39,160 nt of DNA, taken from assembly GCA_023266675.1 (NCBI GenBank), contig JAHFPP010000005.1:1-39160 (forward strand). The letters run 5' to 3'. Shown here in pieces: positions 22,994 through 25,347 of this stretch. Position 1 is the first letter of the stretch, and the number at the start of each line of letters is the position of its first letter. Position numbers and translations under genes: made by a program. The notes below the pieces were generated by a model. The model did no database searches, was not told the origin of the DNA, and worked only from the letters and a program-made list of their open reading frames with translations. Source of the stretch: Candidatus Woesearchaeota archaeon. GTDB taxonomy: Archaea; Nanobdellota; Nanobdellia; Woesearchaeales; BM511.

Positions 22994-23193
22994 TACCTTT
23001 ATCTTTTGTTTTTTTAGTTAATTTTATAACGATAAAATATGAACCTATCAGAAGTATCAAACTAATTAAATCAATAGTGTCAAAGACAACACTTGTAAAT
23101 AACACCATTATTCATATAATAATTTACCATTATAATTTATATATAAGTATTAGATAATTAATAATTAAAGTTATTTTTTGAACGGGGGTTTAA

Positions 23194-24438
23194 ATGAGGT
23201 TTAACTTTAAGACTCTGGTCTTTATCATATTCTTAATATCCCTATTGCCGTTAACTTTAGCTATAGAAACTGCTCTTACTTTTGATGGTAATGGCAATTT
23301 AGAAAGTGGAGATGGATATTTTCGTGTTTATAATGGACTTAACCAGTTATCGAAGATATATACTGGCTCAAATGCTAGTGGAACACTTCTTTATGAATAT
23401 ACTTTTGACCCTACAGAAGATAGAGTTGCAATTAAGCATGATTATGTCAAAAATCGAACTATCTATTATTTTGATAAAGAGTATATGAGACTAGTTAATT
23501 CTTCGGGAACATTCAATTTTGAATTTGCTTATTTTGAAGGTCAGTTAATAGCACAAATCAATCCAGATGGTTCAAAATATTTCTTTATACTTGATCAGAA
23601 AGGTTCAATAGTTGGAGTTACGGATGAAAATGGGGCGTTAGTCGAAAATAAAAGTTACGACCCCTACGGAAATTCAGTTGATGGGATGACAATAACACCT
23701 TATGGCTATGAGGGAAAAGAACATGATTCAGTAGTGGGTGATATTGATTTTAAAGCGAGAAGATATAACCCTAACTTAGCTATGTTTGAACAGCCTGATA
23801 CCTTGATACAAAATGTTTATGACCCACAGAGTTTGAATAGGTATAGTTTTGAAAGAAATAATCCAATAAAAAATATAGACCCGACAGGACACGAAATTGC
23901 ATTACCTTTTGGTGACGCTTTTGGAGATTTATTCAAATTTCCAGTTGAAAATCCATATATTAATCCTTACAATCCACCAGTTGACGTACCAGTCGGTATT
24001 AATGTTGAGCAAAGCGATAAAGCGAGTGATGTTGGGTGGAGTGATTGGACAAAGAAAGATGTTTTCGGAGACGGAAGAGAGAAGTGGTTTAGGGAGAATG
24101 ATAATGAATTTGAAACTTGGGAAGAGAATGACCCACATCAAGGTATGCCATATCGACATATTAACGACCGAATTTATGATAAGAATAAACTAAAACAGGT
24201 TGAAGAATGGAAAAAAAGTGGTCGAGTTGGGCCAAAACCCAACTCAGATCCGATCAATGGTCCTGATGACCACCATGAAGCCGATCCTAACAATCATGAT
24301 CCAACCTCTTATAGATCTGGAAAATCAAAAACCTCACCGATATTCAGTTTTTTCTCTTACATCATAACAACAGCAAAAAAAGAAATTATTATAAGAACTA
24401 ATACTGGTGATGGATATAAAGATATGAAAATTTATTAG
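23194..24438 (+). CDS. Secreted mini-RHS-repeat protein with RHS-associated core and variable C-terminal domain
   Basis: Signal peptide MRFNFKTLVFIIFLISLLPLTLA; YD-repeat-like SYDPYGNSV; RHS core YGYEGKEHDSVVGDIDFKARRYNPNLAMFEQPDTLIQNVYDPQSLNRYSFERNNPIKNIDPTGH. Confidence 0.88.
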   Translation: MRFNFKTLVFIIFLISLLPLTLAIETALTFDGNGNLESGDGYFRVYNGLNQLSKIYTGSNASGTLLYEYTFDPTEDRVAIKHDYVKNRTIYYFDKEYMRLVNSSGTFNFEFAYFEGQLIAQINPDGSKYFFILDQKGSIVGVTDENGALVENKSYDPYGNSVDGMTITPYGYEGKEHDSVVGDIDFKARRYNPNLAMFEQPDTLIQNVYDPQSLNRYSFERNNPIKNIDPTGHEIALPFGDAFGDLFKFPVENPYINPYNPPVDVPVGINVEQSDKASDVGWSDWTKKDVFGDGREKWFRENDNEFETWEENDPHQGMPYRHINDRIYDKNKLKQVEEWKKSGRVGPKPNSDPINGPDDHHEADPNNHDPTSYRSGKSKTSPIFSFFSYIITTAKKEIIIRTNTGDGYKDMKIY

Positions 24439-24458
24439 AATATTTGAGAGGTTAACTA

Positions 24459-24791
24459 ATGGATAAAGAATTAGACATTGATGAAAATCACAAATTTCAT
24501 GATTCAATAATTTATGAGATTAAAAAAACAGATAATGAGTTGGAAATAGTAATTCACATAGACACTTACTGGTTTCAAGGTAAGAAAAATGGTAAATTAA
24601 CATTAAAAAATGCTAAATTCGATGAATCAATAATTAAATATGTAGATGATAAGTATCCTTTTGATAATCTTGATCGATTGACTCACATAAAAGTACATAA
24701 CGAGCATATATTTGAAATCGTTTTTCAATCAAACCAAGAAAAGATTTGGAAGATAACTGCTGATTCTTTTACCTTCGAAAGGTATGATTAA
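24459..24791 (+). CDS. Small acidic hypothetical protein, candidate immunity protein
   Basis: 110-aa ORF 20 bp after the RHS gene; starts MDKELDIDENHKFHDSIIYEI...ELEIVIHIDTYW. Confidence 0.6.
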   Translation: MDKELDIDENHKFHDSIIYEIKKTDNELEIVIHIDTYWFQGKKNGKLTLKNAKFDESIIKYVDDKYPFDNLDRLTHIKVHNEHIFEIVFQSNQEKIWKITADSFTFERYD

Positions 24792-24792
24792 A

Positions 24793-25347
24793 ATGGCAAA
24801 GAAAAGTAATACAAGAAATAAGGGTATAATTTCAAAATATCTGTTTTGGATAATCGTTTTAGTGGTTATAACTCTTATCGGTAATTGGTTTCTTTTTTAC
24901 TACTTTACCCACATTCCAATTCCTAAAGTGCCAAATCCTGTTAAATTAAAATGTAGTACTGCGTGTATTAAATATACAGAATATTTAGATTATAGAGTTG
25001 AGATTGGAAGTTTAACATATAATTGTTTTTGCACTTTAAGAACAGGAGAGAAAATAGAAACGGCTCATTTCCCAATAAATTATAATTATAATAAACCTAT
25101 CTTTATTTTCAAAATCGGATTTGAAAACGGGAATATAATAAACTCCACTATGGCTGGAAAACCATACTATATCAAATTTGTTGAAACTAATAAATATCCT
25201 GCAACACTACTTGCGATGGTTAATGGTGAATTAACAAATAAAATTGCAGAAGGAAACACCTATACCTTAAAAGATGGTTCTAAACTAGGATTTATCAGAT
25301 ATACAACAGAAAGCAACATATTTGAAGGATATATAATCCAAAAATAA
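24793..25347 (+). CDS. Hypothetical protein with one N-terminal TM helix, RHS-cassette associated
   Basis: Start within a few bp of the preceding stop (ATG24784 overlaps it; ATG24793 preferred); TM YLFWIIVLVVITLIGNWFLFYYF then a soluble domain with Cys. Confidence 0.6.
   Translation: MAKKSNTRNKGIISKYLFWIIVLVVITLIGNWFLFYYFTHIPIPKVPNPVKLKCSTACIKYTEYLDYRVEIGSLTYNCFCTLRTGEKIETAHFPINYNYNKPIFIFKIGFENGNIINSTMAGKPYYIKFVETNKYPATLLAMVNGELTNKIAEGNTYTLKDGSKLGFIRYTTESNIFEGYIIQK

Follow-up and report, generated by a model that had tools for sequence, protein, structure and literature searches.

A mini-RHS gene and two small open reading frames

The window analyzed here is a 39,160-nucleotide stretch of contig JAHFPP010000005.1 (forward strand), from an 83-contig draft assembly of a Candidatus Woesearchaeota archaeon. 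It carries a gene for a short RHS protein, hereafter a mini-RHS, followed by two small open reading frames (ORFs) on the same strand. The mini-RHS ORF (23194-24438, +) starts with ATG and encodes 414 amino acids. Its N terminus is Sec-like, with a charged start, a hydrophobic core and a small residue before the predicted cut, which falls between MRFNFKTLVFIIFLISLLPLTLA and the following IE. This predicted signal peptide (residues 1-23; 23194..23262, +) coincides with a modeled helix at residues 5-25, and sister mini-RHS proteins share the hydrophobic N terminus. Next comes a short segment of about 120 amino acids of YD strands (residues ∼28-154; 23275..23655, +), predicted by AlphaFold2 with a local confidence score (pLDDT) of mostly about 90 or more; Foldseek relates it to the C-terminal shell of teneurin, Rhs and Tc proteins (E of about 1e-11 to 1e-6), making it equivalent to the last strands of an RHS shell.

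The RHS-associated core, or C-terminal plug, occupies residues 155-233 (23656..23892, +) and matches TIGR03696 (Rhs_assc_core) over model positions 1-76 of 76 at 57.3 bits (cut-off, 32.5). Pfam returns only TEN_YD-shell and RHS_repeat for the protein, both below threshold, and no PAAR/VgrG-type N-terminal region of the kind found in type VI secretion system (T6SS) effectors; the signal peptide takes that place. The core ends in PIKNIDPTGH (P224-IKNI-D229-PTG-H), which agrees with the published RHS border PxxxxDPxGL in all but the last residue (PMC8636562). D202 and D229 are invariant across 34 aligned sequences and, judging from the motif, are putative counterparts of the cleavage residues of Tse15 or Rhs1. 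These results bear out an initial annotation of this DNA, which had described a 414-amino-acid protein with a Sec-type signal, a very short YD/RHS segment and a complete core ending in DPTGH.

An AlphaFold model built from 34 sequences is confident over residues ∼30-205 and of low confidence in the tail. By Foldseek (best E of 2e-11), the confident part resembles teneurins, T6SS Rhs effectors and Tc BC components in their C-terminal shell and plug, and a profile search with the window protein finds the same relatives at E values down to 1e-44. In the solved Rhs1 of P. laumondii, the barrel spans residues 420-1262 and the plug residues 1263-1357 (PMC8636562). In these terms, the window protein comprises the plug and just the end of the barrel. 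A large YD-repeat cage is not found in the same chain, and by itself the protein would be too short to enclose a toxin. It is probably not a self-sufficient compact RHS protein.

Beyond the border lies a variable C-terminal domain of 181 amino acids plus stop (23893..24438, +), a candidate toxin; it had been annotated as variable, as we find, although at about 175 residues its length had been slightly underestimated. Searches of 279 phylum genomes, viral contigs and plasmids returned no homologue of this tail, and it has no match in Pfam, NCBIfam or PADLOC. A soluble 110-amino-acid ORF (24459..24791, +) begins 20 bp 3' of the mini-RHS stop, and it too lacks homologues in the 279 phylum genomes and in plasmids. 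Being as orphan as the tail, it fits the expectation for a cognate immunity gene, and this is the most likely identity of its product. The next ORF (187 amino acids; 24784..25347, +) overlaps the 110-amino-acid ORF by 8 bp and encodes a transmembrane anchor and a region weakly resembling archaeal S-layer proteins. Residues 113-171, which form this region, have counterparts in many genomes at ∼20 to 25 bits, mostly within ORFs of 850 to 1,000 amino acids; the two of these that were scanned both match PF05124 (S_layer_C). The arrangement of the two ORFs is thus as first annotated. As to their proposed role in immunity, the 110-amino-acid ORF remains a good candidate, whereas the 187-amino-acid ORF may be a second, weaker candidate or an unrelated surface protein. 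A membrane-anchored, S-layer-like protein adjoining a toxin cassette could also act as a surface decoy.

Conserved cores and divergent tails

To describe how cores and tails vary, we compared 39 archaeal core-bearing ORFs all against all, counting pairs with E < 0.01 as similar. All 528 of 528 pairs among 33 cores were similar, compared with 4 of 703 tail pairs, and core alignments nearly all end at residues 232-256, at or just past the border. The core is present in 13 of 60 order-level genomes, with E values down to 3e-69 outside the window's own genome, and is therefore not a chance match. One of the four similar tail pairs shares only a linker, one lies within a tandem array, and one is partial with unrelated downstream ORFs. 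The fourth (L032/L036) is the sole testable pair, and its downstream ORFs are related too (29.5% identity, E of 1.6e-5). We found no related downstream ORFs without related tails, except in the tandem array, where the next cassette takes the place of the downstream ORF. Among the 279 phylum genomes, the window tail and the 110-amino-acid ORF each occur solely at the window locus, so that co-variation is seen just in the sisters, in the L032/L036 pair and in a Colicin_D/Colicin_immun pair described below.

Two sister mini-RHS proteins carry recognizable toxin domains. One (genome G017) has a Colicin_D tail (PF11429, 43 bits; cut-off, 25) followed by a Colicin_immun gene (PF09204, 65 bits; cut-off, 22), and the other (G054) has an Ntox47 tail (PF15540, 71 bits; cut-off, 25) followed by a DUF6756 gene (PF20541, 35 bits; cut-off, 27). 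Archaeal colicin D loci have been termed polymorphic toxins (PMC6393860), and RHS toxins have been described in a handful of methanogens and haloarchaea (PMC3482391). The sister domains make a toxin/immunity reading strong for the class, though it is unproven for the window member itself. Together, the conserved cores, variable tails, toxin and immunity domains in sisters and downstream ORFs that co-vary in the one testable pair support the reading of the window gene as a polymorphic-toxin cassette; by its core, border and tail variability it belongs to the RHS class of such toxins. The toxin/immunity reading proposed in the initial annotation is thus supported for the class, as is its expectation that homologues would combine a conserved core with divergent C termini and co-varying downstream ORFs, the latter in the one pair that could be compared.

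Of the ORFs that follow archaeal mini-RHS genes, about half resemble membrane proteins, which suggests that many tails act at the membrane. One genome (G043) carries six head-to-tail mini-RHS genes (L022:4494-11143, contig C35) directly 3' of two large RHS genes; each encodes its own signal peptide, the cores are near identical, the tails mostly differ, and two have HExxH-like motifs.

Core-less cage genes and complementary coverage

The window genome also encodes, on contig C9, an 1,845-amino-acid protein with a signal peptide, FG-GAP, TcdB_toxin_midN and RHS repeats, and no RHS-associated core. A second mini-RHS gene (408 amino acids, with a different tail) begins at the stop codon of this cage gene and is followed by a 95-amino-acid membrane-like ORF. 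Equivalent pairs of cage and mini-RHS genes occur in a second genome (G051:C70; 1,831 and 452 amino acids) and in the chromosome of archaeon GW2011_AR15 (1,488 and 430 amino acids). TIGR03696 matches none of five large proteins and all 10 mini-RHS proteins, one of them slightly below the cut-off. In total, the window genome holds one cage, two full mini-RHS genes and one displaced tip. The displaced tip (L021:3776-4459, on C9) consists of a core end and a hydrophobic tail without a signal peptide, followed by a 98-amino-acid membrane-like ORF, and is a relic cassette.

We placed the window core in a maximum-likelihood tree of 40 cores, including those of 16 short archaeal proteins drawn from several families. 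The DPANN and Methanosarcinales cores all fall into one group, alongside three long-branch bacterial rows, which supports the archaeal setting first proposed for the cassette. The window protein shares a clade of seven, supported at 100/100, with the C9 mini-RHS, two from AR15, L036, L037 and G051. Each of the six others starts at the stop of a core-less cage gene or its 3' part. The stop/start overlap is 4 bp in C9, both AR15 loci, L036 and L037 and longer in G051, and it lies at a conserved GTGGT-rich sequence that could serve as a ribosome-binding site. The upstream ORF of L036 has its own signal-like start and represents only the 3' half of a cage gene, the L037 cage gene is cut off by the contig end, and the second AR15 mini-RHS is preceded by displaced 3' cage gene pieces 84 and 59% identical to the intact AR15 cage. 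Alone in the clade, the window copy has no adjoining cage and is preceded by 200 bp of noncoding DNA and a peptidyl-prolyl isomerase (PPIase) gene; its genome has yielded no cage gene other than the one on C9. The initial annotation of a compact module lacking a large cage therefore needs correcting, given the cage-coupled relatives and the cage elsewhere in the same genome.

To compare the two gene products with uninterrupted RHS proteins, seven cage proteins and nine mini-RHS proteins were aligned to single-chain references. On Mariprofundus L047, the main alignments of the cages run up to residues 1335-1377, and those of the mini-RHS proteins begin at 1367-1378. The corresponding positions are 1419-1460 and 1501-1529 on L057 and 1051-1081 and 1709-1727 on an archaeal single chain (G028). 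This adjacent and essentially nonoverlapping coverage makes the gene pair look like one RHS chain cut at a fixed place, each part with a signal peptide, and a chain so divided is the simplest reading of these alignments. Cage and core also occur together more often than expected, in 9 of 60 genomes compared with 2.4 (hypergeometric p = 2e-6, an approximate value).

A proposed split RHS toxin and its alternatives

Taken together, these results suggest that the 414-amino-acid protein is the detached C-terminal part of a split, two-gene RHS polymorphic toxin, and that the window copy is an orphan cartridge with a 110-amino-acid immunity gene (probability of about 0.6). In this lineage, one RHS chain would be divided between two neighboring genes whose translation is coupled and which both encode a Sec signal: a large gene for a TcdB-mid/FG-GAP/YD cage without a core and a small gene for a core-toxin cartridge. 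The two proteins would be exported separately and, as both carry Sec-like signals, would meet outside the membrane. There, the cartridge would supply the last strands and the plug, closing the cage around the tail. The plug, of the aspartyl-protease type (D202 and D229), would then cut after the core, releasing the tail as in solved Rhs and Tc proteins, for delivery into a neighboring cell, while the 110-amino-acid protein would protect the producer. The orphan window cartridge may use the C9 cage in trans.

Several observations weigh against this reading. No cage gene lies near the window cassette, so that its pairing with the C9 cage is inferred. The window tail shows no recognizable toxin motif and its AlphaFold2 model is of low confidence, so no fold could be assigned; likewise, the 110-amino-acid ORF matches no immunity family in Pfam, NCBIfam or PADLOC, and its single-sequence model is too poor for a fold assignment. 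On two references (L042 and L074), cage alignments overlap the mini-RHS region by tens of residues or more, and repeats yield further secondary cage alignments. The p-value for the co-occurrence of cage and core is uncorrected for relatedness and includes some distant cage hits (E of ∼1e-4). Four of the 13 core-bearing genomes, some of them incomplete, lack a cage hit. Finally, no immunity genes separate the six mini-RHS genes of the G043 array.

That array, with a signal peptide on each protein, mostly different tails and HExxH-like motifs, would also suit a stand-alone secreted effector, in which the short YD strands and core serve as a folding, processing or attachment module without any cage. 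The window copy is indeed unlinked to a cage, and short core proteins that begin with a hydrophobic segment also occur in a few bacteria (Hahella L096 and Exilibacterium L112). We nevertheless consider this account less likely than the split toxin: each of the six closest relatives is joined to a core-less cage gene or to the 3' part of one, cage and core co-occur across genomes, and the equivalent plug is embedded in the barrel of solved Rhs1 (PMC8636562). Less likely again is an archived, silent cassette, that is, a displaced tip, nonfunctional in place, that is retained to donate sequence to the main locus by recombination. Such tips do exist, as the signal-less relic on C9 and the displaced AR15 cage fragments illustrate, but the window copy retains an intact start, a signal peptide, a complete core, an open tail, a TATA-like box and a downstream ORF.

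A role in surface display or adhesion, with variable tails diversifying the cell surface and the 187-amino-acid ORF sharing that function, seems improbable. Teneurins, which share the shell fold, are adhesive, a gene for a secreted LamG-match protein lies upstream of cage genes, and an S-layer-like region lies downstream in the window; however, two of the sister tails are genuine toxin domains, and one of these is paired with its matching immunity family. A truncated gene, misassembly or contaminating bacterial contig is conceivable in a draft assembly but very unlikely: several archaeal families contribute to the 16 short core proteins in the tree, most of these share the start and signal peptide, and the AR15 chromosome record shows the same arrangement.

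The split RHS toxin proposed here shares features with several known systems. Like RHS polymorphic toxins (bacterial Rhs/WapA and the RHS loci of Methanosarcina; PMC3482391), it has a TIGR03696 core, a PxxxxDPxG border, a variable C terminus, a small downstream ORF and displaced tips; unlike them, it has shell and core in separate genes with Sec signals, only ∼120 amino acids of shell in the mini-RHS and no T6SS-type N terminus. As in TcB/TcC, two polypeptides would form one RHS cage, the large one with TcdB_toxin_midN, FG-GAP and YD repeats and the small one with the core and a variable C terminus. Such a two-chain shell with a TcdB_toxin_midN large chain is encoded at the sister loci, while the window locus has no cage gene. 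The split, however, falls far later than in TcB/TcC, at the last shell strands: the mini-RHS has ∼233 amino acids before the tail, compared with ∼680 in the Tc small chain, and aligns to roughly the last 200 to 300 residues before the TcC variable region. Because both this split point and the separate Sec signals differ, we do not classify the pair as a Tc toxin.

Displaced orphan rhs-CT/immunity tips of bacterial rhs loci are likewise unlinked core-toxin-immunity cassettes, likely moved by recombination. Bacterial orphan tips usually lack a start and an export signal; the window cassette has both. The nanohaloarchaeal SPEARE proteins, which are also found on the surface of DPANN archaea, have a predicted BC-toxin-like (RHS cage) domain, but they are giant single chains with protease, adhesion and nuclease domains rather than core-toxin cassettes (PMC6642349). 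The bacterial relatives we collected are mostly long single chains or fragments. At least two, the Hahella and Exilibacterium proteins (∼315 to 350 amino acids, similar in size to the G043 mini-RHS proteins), combine a hydrophobic N-terminal segment with an RHS core, so the mini form is not exclusively archaeal. We found no description of a split, doubly exported RHS protein in an incomplete search of the literature.

The weapons of DPANN archaea, and how these affect hosts or competitors, are little known. Separate export of cage and toxin tip would mean that encapsulation follows export, unlike in solved single-chain Rhs effectors, and one cage could carry many toxins. A tentative extension, possible rather than probable, is that DPANN archaea export one shared core-less cage and several interchangeable, separately exported cartridges that enter it from outside, with orphans widening the arsenal in trans. 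A core-less cage gene followed by a secreted mini-RHS gene could serve as a search marker for more such systems.

The surroundings of the cassette offer some further observations. The possibility that it is a recent copy of the C9 locus was rejected, as the two share no DNA similarity beyond 21 bp. Among the other 24 genomes searched, none has a homologue of the right-hand neighbor, a DUF6159 gene, and just one has a close counterpart of a nearby FeoB-like gene; an empty-site comparison for an insertion between the PPIase and DUF6159 genes was therefore not feasible. A scan of the window for sigma-70 promoters and terminators, a method ill-suited to archaea, gave results near chance level. A TATA-box-like TTTATATATAA (23136..23146, +), ∼48 bp upstream of the start codon, is a possible archaeal promoter of an independently expressed cassette.

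Directly upstream of the C9, G051 and AR15 cage genes lies a gene for a secreted protein with a shared C-terminal region (L031:5577-7328, L032:3702-5045 and L035:1-1515), a possible third component; it has a LamG match in two of the three loci, the C9 protein being without a Pfam match. IS110-family transposase genes, whole or fragmentary, are found no more than ∼3 kb from RHS cores or tips in five genomes (L021:6658-7800 on C9, L032:12964-14010, L036:10547-11668, G052:C42:3698-4195 and G017:C28:11218-11304), identified by a search except for the C9 gene (Pfam) and the L036 gene (inspection). They possibly represent a cassette-shuffling recombinase or merely mark an insertion hot spot.
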